Assembly (NCBI GenBank): GCA_903823025.1
Contig: CAIJRK010000044.1
Location: forward strand, 1 to 64,000
Reading direction: 5' to 3'
Source of the DNA: an uncultured beta proteobacterium
GTDB lineage: Bacteria > Pseudomonadota > Gammaproteobacteria > Burkholderiales > Burkholderiaceae_C
Length of the DNA: 64,000 nucleotides
The notes under the pieces were generated by a model. That model was not told the origin of the DNA and made no database searches. It saw nothing but the letters and a program-made list of their open reading frames with translations. Shown here piece by piece: positions 47,509-52,924 of the stretch; within the stretch, counting starts at the first letter, position 1; every line of letters starts with the position of its first letter. Made by a program: the position numbers and the translations under genes.

Positions 47509-48009
47509 TTACTTTTTCTTGGCAACTGTGACTTCAATTTCTACCAACCAACCCGGATTGACCAGCCCGGCAACGGCCATCGTAGAGCGTGCCGCCAGGG
47601 TCGGCTGAGACCCGCCAAAGAATTCGGCATAGCCTTCAGAAAACCCGGCAAAGTCCATCTTGCCCAGCTTGGGGTCTGCCACCAGAAAGACCTGAACCTT
47701 GACGACATCCTTGAAGTCAAGACTCATACCGTCCAGGGTAGTTTTGATCTGCTTAAGCACGCCTATTGTCTGGGTTTTGGTGTCGCCATAGGCCTCGATG
47801 CTGGTTTTGGCAACACTCGTATTGACGACGGGTGGCACATGACCACTCAAGTAGAACGTCGTCAGGCCGGGGGCAACTTCTACACCTGCGGCAATGGGAG
47901 AGGCTGCATTGGCAGACTTGTGACGCACGATGTCGCTGGCGTGTGCCGACAAGGCACTCGCAGAGAAAAGCAACGTCGCCATAGTGATAGAGAGTAGATT
48001 TTTTTTCAT
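47509..48009 (-). CDS. RidA/YjgF family protein with N-terminal Sec signal peptide
   Basis: MKKNLLSITMATLLFSASALSAHA signal + RidA domain (KQIKTTLDGMSLDFKDVVKVQVFL ... ARSTMAVAGLVNPGWLVEIEVTV). Confidence 0.88.
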   Translation of the reverse strand: MKKNLLSITMATLLFSASALSAHASDIVRHKSANAASPIAAGVEVAPGLTTFYLSGHVPPVVNTSVAKTSIEAYGDTKTQTIGVLKQIKTTLDGMSLDFKDVVKVQVFLVADPKLGKMDFAGFSEGYAEFFGGSQPTLAARSTMAVAGLVNPGWLVEIEVTVAKKK

Positions 48010-48057
48010 CTTGATTATTTCAGTGAGTCGGTGGACTAAGTGATGGCGAATTTGCCG

Positions 48058-48480
48058 TTAATACTGGGTACTGCTCTGAGCGCGATCCACATTTTCTTTA
48101 GCTGCCACACTCAAGCGCAGGTTGGCAATCTCGGCAGAGGCCACGGAATCCGCCTGATTGCCCCAGTGTGAGCGGATAAAAGTCAGAATGGACGCGACTT
48201 CAACATCATTCAACGAGGCCTGAAACGAAGGCATTCCGCCACGCCCTCGAAGCACAACACCGGCTAGCGCCATCGTGTCACCTTGCACCAGCTTATTGTT
48301 GCTCAGGGCTGGGAAAGCACCGTCAATACCTTGGCCTTGCGCTTGGTGGCAGGCCGCGCATTTTCCTTGAAAAAGAGTGCCTCCTACAGATTCGGATTGA
48401 GCGAAGGCCGCCGTAGAGACAAGTCCTGTGACCAGCAAAGAAGTCACCAGTGCACGATGATAGAAGTTACTCGCGTTCAT
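48058..48480 (-). CDS. class I cytochrome c, periplasmic
   Basis: Signal peptide (FYHRALVTSLLVTGLVSTAAFA), CAACH heme-binding motif, distal Met region GGMPSFQ. Confidence 0.92.
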   Translation of the reverse strand: MNASNFYHRALVTSLLVTGLVSTAAFAQSESVGGTLFQGKCAACHQAQGQGIDGAFPALSNNKLVQGDTMALAGVVLRGRGGMPSFQASLNDVEVASILTFIRSHWGNQADSVASAEIANLRLSVAAKENVDRAQSSTQY

Positions 48481-48490
48481 CGTGACTTTC

Positions 48491-50098
48491 TTAAGCGACC
48501 AATGCGCGAGCGTGCAACTTGGCCATCTGCTGCCATGACGATTCAATAGCACCCGCCATCCAGCCTGTGAGGTAACTCATGTGCTCACCCGCCAGATAAA
48601 CACGGCCCTCTGCCTCCAGTAGAACCGGGTAAGCATTTTTGCGCGACTCAACACTCCAGTCAGCCCATCCACCCATGTTGTATTTCACGCGGTGCCAAGC
48701 GACTGAGAATGTTTTCTCTACATTCTCACGGTATTGAGGAAATATTTTTTCACCAGCAGCAGTAGCAAACTCAGCGCGTTGGGCCGGACTCATGGCACTG
48801 ACTTCTACCGCATCCGCCATAAAGTTATAGTAACCCAGCAAAGTTCCTTTTTGACCTTGCCAGTGGTTTGAAGGCAGTGAAATGCTGCCGATACCTTTAA
48901 AGTTGGTTCGAATGTGCCCCCCGTAGATGGCATCATCTTCTTCCCAGAATCGACGCTTCATCTGAATCCCTATTTTTCCTGTTGGCTCGTAAGCCACTGC
49001 GGCAATAGCTTCCTTGAAGGGCGCTGAAAAATCAGTATCAATGTTCCTCAAAACAGACAGCGGTATGGTGCACAGGCAAAAGTCTGCTTCAACAAGGCTG
49101 ATCTTGCCCGTGGCACTGTCTTTAATCTGAGCGCTAACAACTTGTTTGTTTTGGCGAATCGCCAGCACTTCCGTGTTGTAGCGGATAGATTTTCCTACCC
49201 GCTTGGCAAAAGCCTTGGCAATCTGATCCATGCCGCCTACGGGTTGGAACATAGTCGCTTGCTGCGTGAAACTGTTCACAGACTTGTAAATCTTGCCTAG
49301 TTTGGAGCCTAGTAAGGCCTTGAATCCCAAGGGGTCGGAAGGCGTGCCGGGTCCTGGATTCACACCCGCGCCAGGATTGACTTTGTAGCCGCGCCCACCG
49401 GTTCCCAGATATTTCAGGTCGCCTTTGGAAAGATAGCCTTCATTAGCCAGATAGTCCAGCAACAGTACCTTGTCTTCTTCGGTTAGCTGCTCATCGAGTT
49501 TGCCGGTTTGTACGCCCTTAGCGAGAAGTTCAGCCACATGCCCACGCATATCAGCCTTGATTTCTCCTTGCCGCAAACGTTTTCCTGACAGGGCACCCGC
49601 AGTCTTTTCATGATAGACATAAGCGGCATCGTTGTCGTTAATAAATACTTCTAGTGGCACCCCAAATTCACGGGTGTAGTGCAAGGTAGAGCGGTGGTTA
49701 TACGGAATTCGCCAAGGACCATGGTTGATGTATTCGCCTTCATCAAACTGGCAAACCTGTTTTTCTCCGCCAAGTTCAGTGAGTTCAAAACCACGACGCG
49801 CGGTCTGGCAACGTCCGCCGGCAAAAGATCGGGCTTCAATTAATTGACATTCATAACCTAATTTTCCTAACTCATAAGCCGCCGTCATACCGGCTAGACC
49901 AGCACCTAGGATAAGAACTTTTTTTCCTTTTCCGCTACCGGTTAGTTCAGGTGGCCTGTCGGCTCTGGAAGGCTCACTCATACCCCATGCGTTCATGGTA
50001 GCCATGGTGAGTCCTAGTCCCCCAATAGCGGCTGTTCTATAAAGAAATTCACGGCGGGTTCGGATACCGCCAAAACTGTTGGCTTGAACTTTTGACAT
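48491..50098 (-). CDS. Tat-exported flavin monoamine oxidase family protein
   Basis: TRREFLYRTAAIGGLGLTMAT twin-arginine signal; KVLILGAGLAGMTAAYEL FAD site; C-terminal GRVYLAGEHMSYLTGWMAGAIESSW. Confidence 0.92.
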   Translation of the reverse strand: MSKVQANSFGGIRTRREFLYRTAAIGGLGLTMATMNAWGMSEPSRADRPPELTGSGKGKKVLILGAGLAGMTAAYELGKLGYECQLIEARSFAGGRCQTARRGFELTELGGEKQVCQFDEGEYINHGPWRIPYNHRSTLHYTREFGVPLEVFINDNDAAYVYHEKTAGALSGKRLRQGEIKADMRGHVAELLAKGVQTGKLDEQLTEEDKVLLLDYLANEGYLSKGDLKYLGTGGRGYKVNPGAGVNPGPGTPSDPLGFKALLGSKLGKIYKSVNSFTQQATMFQPVGGMDQIAKAFAKRVGKSIRYNTEVLAIRQNKQVVSAQIKDSATGKISLVEADFCLCTIPLSVLRNIDTDFSAPFKEAIAAVAYEPTGKIGIQMKRRFWEEDDAIYGGHIRTNFKGIGSISLPSNHWQGQKGTLLGYYNFMADAVEVSAMSPAQRAEFATAAGEKIFPQYRENVEKTFSVAWHRVKYNMGGWADWSVESRKNAYPVLLEAEGRVYLAGEHMSYLTGWMAGAIESSWQQMAKLHARALVA

Positions 50099-50660: not shown

Positions 50661-52619
50661 CTAATCGTTGATCGTAAAAACGGCCATGGTTTTGACAAGC
50701 GCCTCCGCCTGACTTTGCAAGCTGCTGGCCGCAGCGGCCATTTGTTCGACAAGGGCGGCGTTTTGCTGCGTCACCTGATCCATCTGCGTGACCGCTTCGC
50801 CCACTTGCGAGACGCCTAGCGCCTGCTCACGGCTGGCAGCGCTAATTTCGCCCATGAGATCGCTCACACGCTTGATGGCGCTCACCACCTCTGCCATGGT
50901 GCGCCCCGCCTGATCAACCAGCGCCGAGCCTTGCTCAACCCGCGCCACGCTGATGCCAATCAGACTCTTGATCTCTTTGGCCGCCTGCGCTGAACGCCCA
51001 GCCAAGCTACGCACTTCAACGGCCACGACAGCAAAGCCACGGCCCTGTTCGCCCGCGTGGGCCGCTTCTACCGCCGCATTCAGGGCCAGAATATTGGTTT
51101 GAAAGGCGATGCTGTCAATGACGCCAATAATGTCGCCTATCTTGCGCGAGGCCTCGTTAATGCCCTTCATGGTGTGGACCACCTGACTGACGACATCACC
51201 GCCTTGAACGGCTACCGCAGAGGCATTCAGGGCCAGTTGATTGGCTTGGTGCGCGCTATCAGCATTTTGTTTGACCGTGGCACTCAGTTCTTCCATGGAA
51301 GCCGCAGTTTGTTCCAGCGCACTGGCCTGACTTTCGGTGCGCGCTGACAAGTCATGGTTGCCCTGCACAATTTCAGCACTGGCCGCCGCGACGCCATCAG
51401 AACCCAGGCGCACAGCAGCGACCACCCGGGCAAGGTTGTCCTGCATCCGCTTGAGTTGTGCCATCAAGCTGCGCTCGTCATGGGGGGCGACGTGGATCGA
51501 ACCCTCCAGATGACCCTGCGCCACCCGTACAGCAATGGCGGCAGCCTCTGACGGTTCACCCCCGAGGGGACGCAAGACCAAACGCGTGATCAAAAAGTTT
51601 AGCCCCCATGACACGGCAATCACACTCAGCAGACCCAGGATGACGGCCACATAGCGCAGGCGATTAACCCCTGCCAGCGCTTTGTCATCGGGTACGGTGG
51701 TGGCAAACGACCAGGCAGTTGGGGTGGCACCCATTTGTACCGGCACGTAAATACGCGTCACCTCGGTTTGCAGTTGTTCATTGAAATACCGGGTCTCGTG
51801 CTTGAGTCCCGCTTTGATGGCAGTTTTGGCGGCCATCATCTGTTCAGAGGTGCCCAAGTCCTGACCGATATTTTTGGCATCGCCATCGCCCACATACAAA
51901 CCCCCGTTGGAGATCAGACTGGCAAAGCCGGTTTCATACAGACGCAGCGCGCCGACTTCTTTCTGAAAACTCTCCAGCGACAAGTCAATTCCAACCACGC
52001 CAACAAACTTGCCATTGACCTGAATGGGCACGACCACCGAGGTAATCAACACATCTTTGCCCGCGACTTTGTAGAGATAGGGTTCAAGCAGCGTCTCGGT
52101 GCCCGATTGTTTGGCCAGCAGGTAGTAGTCGCCCGCGCCCGGTTTGTCGTAATCGGTCAGCGGCTCGACCACAATGCTGGCCCCGCCGCGGTTCCAGTAG
52201 GGCACGTAACGCCCGGTGGCATCGTGGCCGGGTTGACCCACGTTGTCAGCGTCCAAACCATCAAACGCGTTGGGCTCCCACCCCGTCCAGACCGCCAGAA
52301 AGCTGGTGTCGCCTTCCAGCACGCTTTTGAGCATGACATCGGTGGCGGCACGGCTGTTCATCTCAGCCGACTTAAGACCCCCCAAAGCATGGGCCAGCGT
52401 GCGCACCGCGTCCAGCGCGACCTCCACACGCGCTGAAGTCTGGCTGGCGTGGGTTCGGGCCAGCTGCTCGGCGTATTGATGGATAACCTTTTTTTGCTGC
52501 GTGGTGGCCTGGTAGGTCAACCAGCCAATTGTCAAGGTAAAACTTGCCAGAACAAGCGCCGCAATCAACGGCAAGACTCTCATTTGAAGCGTGGTCGTGG
52601 TCGTTTTTTTGGCTGGCAT
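50661..52619 (-). CDS. methyl-accepting chemotaxis protein with dCache-type sensor, no WETF tail
   Basis: Periplasmic dCache (VVGIDLSLESFQKEV), HAMP, MCP hairpin; ends ALVKTMAVFTIND. Confidence 0.95.
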   Translation of the reverse strand: MPAKKTTTTTLQMRVLPLIAALVLASFTLTIGWLTYQATTQQKKVIHQYAEQLARTHASQTSARVEVALDAVRTLAHALGGLKSAEMNSRAATDVMLKSVLEGDTSFLAVWTGWEPNAFDGLDADNVGQPGHDATGRYVPYWNRGGASIVVEPLTDYDKPGAGDYYLLAKQSGTETLLEPYLYKVAGKDVLITSVVVPIQVNGKFVGVVGIDLSLESFQKEVGALRLYETGFASLISNGGLYVGDGDAKNIGQDLGTSEQMMAAKTAIKAGLKHETRYFNEQLQTEVTRIYVPVQMGATPTAWSFATTVPDDKALAGVNRLRYVAVILGLLSVIAVSWGLNFLITRLVLRPLGGEPSEAAAIAVRVAQGHLEGSIHVAPHDERSLMAQLKRMQDNLARVVAAVRLGSDGVAAASAEIVQGNHDLSARTESQASALEQTAASMEELSATVKQNADSAHQANQLALNASAVAVQGGDVVSQVVHTMKGINEASRKIGDIIGVIDSIAFQTNILALNAAVEAAHAGEQGRGFAVVAVEVRSLAGRSAQAAKEIKSLIGISVARVEQGSALVDQAGRTMAEVVSAIKRVSDLMGEISAASREQALGVSQVGEAVTQMDQVTQQNAALVEQMAAAASSLQSQAEALVKTMAVFTIND

Positions 52620-52924
52620 GACTGAGTTTTTAGAGTGGGAAATGTTTTTAACGCTAGGCAATAATTGTGCCGCAGACAGCCACCCTTTGACTGGGTTGTC
52701 AATGAAATAGGCATTAATTTGGTGCACGATTCTTTGTCGTGAAAGCGCTCATTCGGCTTAAAGCCTGGTCGCCGTAAAACCCAGAGGGTCGCCACGTTTA
52801 AAGTGCGCACCTCCAACCCTTGCCACACTGTTTTTTTGAAGGTACACAAAGTGTTTCTAAAATTGGCCCACCTCATTTTTGGGGCAGATGGGTGGGACCC
52901 TTGGCCGAAAGCAAAGAAACATCG

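Follow-up and report, generated by a model that had tools for sequence, protein, structure and literature searches.

A conserved flavoprotein-cytochrome c-RidA gene set, probably for L-amino acid oxidation outside the inner membrane, in an uncultured beta proteobacterium

Background

What is oxidized, and where do the electrons and the reactive product go, when a flavoprotein, a cytochrome c and a RidA-family protein are encoded side by side and all three appear to be exported? Such a set lies at positions 47509-50098 of the window, the 64,000-nucleotide stretch of contig CAIJRK010000044.1 (uncultured beta proteobacterium, Burkholderiaceae_C) that was analysed here. We find that it is very probably a set of proteins acting outside the inner membrane, where they oxidize amino acids and hydrolyse the reactive imine by-product.

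Related arrangements have been published. The lao-cccA-ridA cluster (GDI2456-GDI2455-GDI2454) of Gluconacetobacter diazotrophicus PAL5 was described in 2016, with a Tat signal on the L-amino acid oxidase (LAAO). According to the excerpts of that source (PMC5053998), the cluster is needed for the production of auxin (IAA) from tryptophan and is conserved in Caulobacter and Xanthomonas; a Tn5 insertion in lao abolishes IAA and also lowers the cccA and ridA transcripts. In the same excerpts the authors already suggest that cytochrome c accepts electrons and that RidA deals with the imine. A periplasmic LAO1 with LAO2/RIDA was reported from Chlamydomonas in 2023, citing the bacterial cluster (PMC10805672), and RidA and Rid3 genes are known to cluster with FAD amine oxidase genes (PMC4433059). 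An exported, flavoenzyme-linked RidA is therefore a known arrangement, little examined in bacteria, and the novelty claimed for it in a preliminary description of this locus falls to the published lao-cccA-ridA cluster and to the periplasmic LAAO-RidA pair. The additions made here are the Rid3 assignment, the uniformity of the export signals, the correction of the substrate from amine to L-amino acid, a strict co-occurrence within the family and the division into members with and without a linked cytochrome.

Results

Layout and export signals

The three open reading frames are codirectional on the minus strand. The flavoprotein gene (48491-50098; ATG at 50098, stop at 48491) encodes 535 residues with the N-terminus MSKVQANSFGGIRTRREFLYRTAAIGG. 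Its stop is separated by 10 bp (48481-48490, minus strand) from the start of the cytochrome c gene (48058-48480, minus strand; ATG at 48480, stop at 48058), which encodes a mono-haem protein of 140 residues with a single CAACH. A further 48 bp (48010-48057, minus strand) lead from the cytochrome c stop to the RidA gene (47509-48009, minus strand; ATG at 48009, stop at 47509), encoding 166 residues with the N-terminus MKKNLLSITMATLLFSASALSAHA. Gene order and both gaps, read from the sequence, agree with the preliminary description, which had left out the strand. Pfam assigns the products to Amino_oxidase (2.5e-50), Cytochrome_CBB3 (4e-10) and Ribonuc_L-PSP (4.5e-15), respectively. The 2.6-kb operon sits between recQ and a chemoreceptor (MCP) gene at 50661-52640; recQ (47481) is convergent and lies 28 bp from the end of the RidA gene. 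Promoter and terminator scans gave sites no more numerous than in shuffled sequence.

The flavoprotein carries the Tat motif RTRREFLYR, and a twin-arginine motif (RR.F/L-L; KR.FL in loci of the Woeseiaceae type) stands at the N-terminus of essentially all of its relatives. The source genome contains tatC. A signal peptide of about 24 residues is predicted for the RidA protein of the window. Sec-type N-termini were called by a crude rule. Because 14 of 46 control ORFs satisfied it as well, the rule is weak for single cases and informative through its consistency across loci: it is passed by 57/57 linked RidAs and 48/50 linked cytochromes. The sole other Rid-family protein of the genome (contig C30) begins at the domain and fails it. 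The predicted N-termini are thus of the Tat, Sec and Sec types originally claimed, and they recur across relatives. Near the LAO-RidA pair of Paenibacillus lies a tatC gene (Pfam 3.5e-53; L033, 4713-5501, minus strand, and seven further loci), and the pair looks as if it were accompanied by its own Tat translocase.

Synteny and co-conservation

Flavoprotein loci were compared in 80 genomes and the window (81 loci). The order flavoprotein-cytochrome-RidA was found in 28 loci, RidA-flavoprotein-cytochrome in eight and RidA-cytochrome-flavoprotein in one; 16 loci had flavoprotein and RidA, nine had flavoprotein and cytochrome, and in 19 the flavoprotein stood alone. RidA adjoins the flavoprotein in 53/81 loci and cytochrome c does so in 46/81. 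Since RidA is missing within 2.5 kb at the other 28, it is not strictly required. The trio can be seen in annotated form on a plasmid of Comamonas odontotermitis, where a flavin monoamine oxidase family protein, a cytochrome c and a RidA family protein follow one another.

A survey of 151 genomes from the family to which the window belongs (cut-offs E <= 1e-60 for the flavoprotein and E <= 1e-15 for RidA) located the flavoprotein in six genomes and RidA in the same six, adjacent in 6/6, with a space between the two that fits a cytochrome gene in every case. Independent draws would pick the same six of 151 about once in 1.5e10, odds that are made milder by shared ancestry. The trio arrangement is far beyond chance. 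Co-conservation of RidA, on which the preliminary description had staked its proposal, is therefore borne out by the six family genomes and by the 53 loci, and synteny supports its view that the exported flavoprotein, the cytochrome c and the exported RidA form a single conserved functional unit. On the flavoprotein tree, linked cytochrome requires three state changes and RidA eight. Mantel tests correlated flavoprotein distances with those of the cytochrome (rho 0.81, 0/999 shuffles) and, more weakly, with those of RidA (rho 0.29, 0/999 shuffles).

Beyond the trio, no further partner gene family common to so many lineages was found. The top extra cluster near the loci was rejected as a partner, consisting mostly of antisense ORFs. 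The neighbouring chemoreceptor was likewise rejected as part of the module; it has no homologue near other loci, and a genome of the same genus has an MCP with a different sensor beside recQ.

Flavoprotein identity and substrate

A PDB search returned the LAAO of Rhodococcus opacus (2JAE) as the closest solved relative (E = 3.5e-87, residues 52-532), followed by snake-venom LAAOs at about 1e-29. In the R. opacus enzyme the active-site residues are R84, Q228, Y371, W426 and W467, as reportedly named in its 2007 structure paper, and its active-site Arg, Tyr, Trp and Gln positions agree with the window flavoprotein. LAAOs have in common that the carboxylate of the substrate is bound by an Arg and a Tyr, and that a catalytic water is held by a Lys (PMC9331233). 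The printed alignments place these three at Arg130, Tyr424 and Lys375, and Trp513 is also aligned with the active site. Across 85 flavoprotein relatives, Arg130 is kept in 85, Tyr424 in 81 (with Phe in three), Trp513 in 84 and Lys375 in at least 95%. The features of the R. opacus and snake-venom enzymes, namely full-length homology, carboxylate Arg and Tyr and catalytic Lys, are therefore present. Because 2JAE is the best match and these residues are kept, the substrate is likely an L-amino acid rather than an amine, and the protein, a flavoprotein of the LAAO/Lao type, is likely an FAD-dependent L-amino acid oxidoreductase. A literature search found no biochemistry on this flavoprotein or its near kin.

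Electron acceptor

The closest solved chains to the cytochrome c are cytochrome domains or subunits of nitrite reductase and of glucose, alcohol and fructose dehydrogenases. Three lines of evidence indicate that this cytochrome, and not O2, is most probably the acceptor of the flavoprotein. Cytochrome c is linked in 46/81 loci and its divergence tracks that of the flavoprotein (rho 0.81). In measured relatives of the superfamily, a Tat signal together with an adjacent cytochrome c predicts a dehydrogenase (PMC12224317). Finally, ccm mutants of G. diazotrophicus retain 5% of their IAA, a loss of 95%, as quoted in the excerpts of PMC5053998. The second line may not transfer to the present family, because the dehydrogenases of PMC12224317 were retrieved by NicA2 queries and may lie at a large distance from the window flavoprotein clade.

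The same three lines speak against a true periplasmic oxidase, which would pass electrons to O2 and release H2O2 in the style of antimicrobial or ammonium-scavenging LAAOs and leave the cytochrome to handle H2O2 or another step. We consider this unlikely, with two observations in its favour: the closest characterized enzymes, the R. opacus LAAO (unlike the protein proposed here, itself classed as an O2-using oxidase) and snake-venom LAAO, are oxidases, and 16 relatives linked to RidA have no linked cytochrome c. Because of these 16, the acceptor can vary across the family or the cytochrome can be encoded elsewhere. The LAO1 system of Chlamydomonas resembles the window set, by its description, in pairing an extracellular or periplasmic LAAO with a periplasmic RidA encoded in the same cluster and in yielding 2-oxo acid and ammonium, with IAA from tryptophan (PMC10805672). 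It differs in being eukaryotic and H2O2-producing (O2 as acceptor), with no linked cytochrome c described.

RidA family and catalytic residues

The top two PDB matches of the RidA protein are PFL1385 (9BKC, 2.7e-26) and PSPTO3006 (9BKA, 3.1e-21), with the third at 1.8e-8. Both are Rid3 proteins that hydrolyse imino acids generated by an LAAO (PMC5619798). Like the window protein they have the catalytic residues, and the start of PFL1385 is also signal-like; unlike it, they were studied as isolated deaminases, and the words 'periplasm' and 'signal' are absent from PMC5619798. Catalytic Arg141 and Glu157 are present in all 56 of the 56 linked homologues having those columns. In Rid3 an Ile replaces the Tyr of RidA (PMC4433059), and Ile39 of the window protein is at least 95% conserved, its position being matched by eye (PIAAGV to RidA PYVQGV) while the HMMER alignment to 2DYY puts the gap elsewhere. 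By its top PDB matches the protein appears to be of the Rid3 type, and periplasmic imine hydrolysis, the role first proposed for it, would fit intact catalytic residues and closest relatives that are proven imino-acid deaminases.

It is rather improbable that the operon RidA is instead a non-hydrolase with another periplasmic role, for instance as a chaperone for the flavoprotein or as one of its structural subunits. A RidA-like, non-catalytic beta subunit of a Chlamydomonas LAAO complex, cited in the excerpts of PMC5053998, and the 19 loci that carry the flavoprotein with neither partner would suit such a role; the complete retention of Arg and Glu and the imine deaminase activity of the characterized Rid3 relatives (PMC5619798) argue for hydrolysis.

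Discussion

The preliminary description had proposed an amine dehydrogenase of the NicA2/Pnao type, acting on amines or polyamines such as putrescine, phenethylamine or pseudooxynicotine and served by a dedicated periplasmic RidA, a reading that shares superfamily and layout (Tat flavoprotein beside Sec cytochrome c) with the window and is scarcely credible, since NicA2 (5TTJ) matches the flavoprotein at 2.5e-8 over residues 15-111 only, about 95 N-terminal residues, against 3.5e-87 over nearly the full length for the R. opacus LAAO, which places it outside the NicA2 clade, and since the LAAO residues for carboxylate binding, an invariant Arg and a nearly invariant Tyr, speak for an alpha-amino acid. 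The NicA2-CycN group and kindred Tat amine dehydrogenases further differ in their amine substrates, and Rid proteins go unmentioned in PMC12224317 (term count 0).

The published cluster closest to the window set is that of G. diazotrophicus, which, in the excerpts of PMC5053998, has the same three genes, adjacent, codirectional and in identical order, with a Tat signal on the LAAO. Export of RidA is not stated in those excerpts. Their Table 1 gives RT-qPCR primers for ridA which, translated at the positions stated there, place ASTIYL at codon 48 and KLGKID at 113; the window counterparts are TTFYLS at 50 and KLGKMD at 114, so the G. diazotrophicus RidA has an N-terminal extension of similar, signal-like length. 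A primer published there encodes YPSHG, as found in a Luteibacter-type branch, and the window flavoprotein belongs to another branch.

We regard the window operon as probably a horizontally acquired copy of lao-cccA-ridA that carries out periplasmic L-amino acid oxidation with cytochrome c as acceptor and imine hydrolysis by RidA. Gene content, order, co-conservation, export-type N-termini and kept catalytic residues were obtained directly; from them we infer the L-amino acid substrate, the cytochrome c acceptor and the periplasmic hydrolysis. The flavoprotein would be folded and loaded with FAD before Tat export, and would then oxidize an L-amino acid in the periplasm (tryptophan in the published relative) to a 2-imino acid. 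The Sec-exported cytochrome c would most probably take the electrons of FADH2 and hand them to a terminal oxidase, and the Sec-exported, Rid3-type RidA would convert the imino acid to 2-oxo acid and ammonium before other reactions occur. The trio is real and well conserved, and the mechanism is plausible. The operon may serve nitrogen scavenging, oxo-acid production or auxin production; auxin as the end product is unsupported in the source genome, because no indolepyruvate decarboxylase (IpdC-like) was found above the cut-off there. Imine clean-up seems to be independent of the acceptor, since members from Paenibacillus and cyanobacteria without a linked cytochrome keep RidA.

Horizontal acquisition is the simplest reading of the comparisons. 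In another genome of the same genus, flavoprotein and RidA genes are both absent at the profile cut-offs of the family survey, and recQ faces an MCP gene over about 90 bp with nothing between. The flanking genes have a GC content of 59-60%, compared with 50% for the flavoprotein gene, 54% for cytochrome c and 53% for RidA. Massilia-type bacteria, Pigmentiphaga and Lampropedia supply the closest sequences (67-70%), against at most 44% for those members of the window's family that were sampled. Lampropedia hyalina is the partner of the window on the flavoprotein tree and again on the RidA tree, which fits joint inheritance of the two genes. The MCP of the window and that of the same-genus genome (L092, 8342-10144) share only the signalling half (69% identical) and differ in the sensor half; they need not be one gene, as only the signalling half is common, and the chemoreceptor beside recQ possibly underwent a sensor swap between the two genomes.

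If the mechanism is true, bacteria possess a dedicated extra-cytoplasmic route by which amino acids feed the respiratory chain without release of H2O2 and with imine removal built in; the published auxin cluster would then be an instance of this route. Tentatively, we think it quite possible that this is a widespread, horizontally moving module for periplasmic L-amino-acid respiration, combining an LAAO-type cytochrome-c dehydrogenase outside the NicA2 set with a dedicated clade of exported Rid3 proteins, in which the acceptor type switches within the flavoprotein family, with a linked cytochrome in Proteobacteria and none in Paenibacillus and cyanobacteria, and both groups retain the exported RidA. 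The comparative set of cytochrome-linked and unlinked loci, with and without RidA, is a test bed for what controls oxidase versus dehydrogenase behaviour, and it bears equally on the need for a periplasmic RidA.

Several loci differ in their surroundings. TonB-dependent receptor genes lie near the operon in some lineages only, among them several Massilia-type bacteria, Caulobacter and Nitrospirillum (L006, 8469-11042; L005, 5896-8394; L003, 8101-10761), perhaps for substrate uptake. In Bacteroidota (L038, 7620-8618, and ten further loci) the flavoprotein occurs without cytochrome c or RidA and is directly followed by a gene for a Hint-domain (self-splicing-type) protein, with an aminotransferase upstream in most. 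Plasmid 3 of Deinococcus radiodurans (L098) carries cytochrome c first and then an adjacent LAO-type flavoprotein, without RidA. In two Bradyrhizobium loci (L063 and L064) neither cytochrome c nor RidA is linked to the flavoprotein, although both partners are present in the closest relatives (L052 and L057); we read their absence from the two loci as recent loss or relocation.
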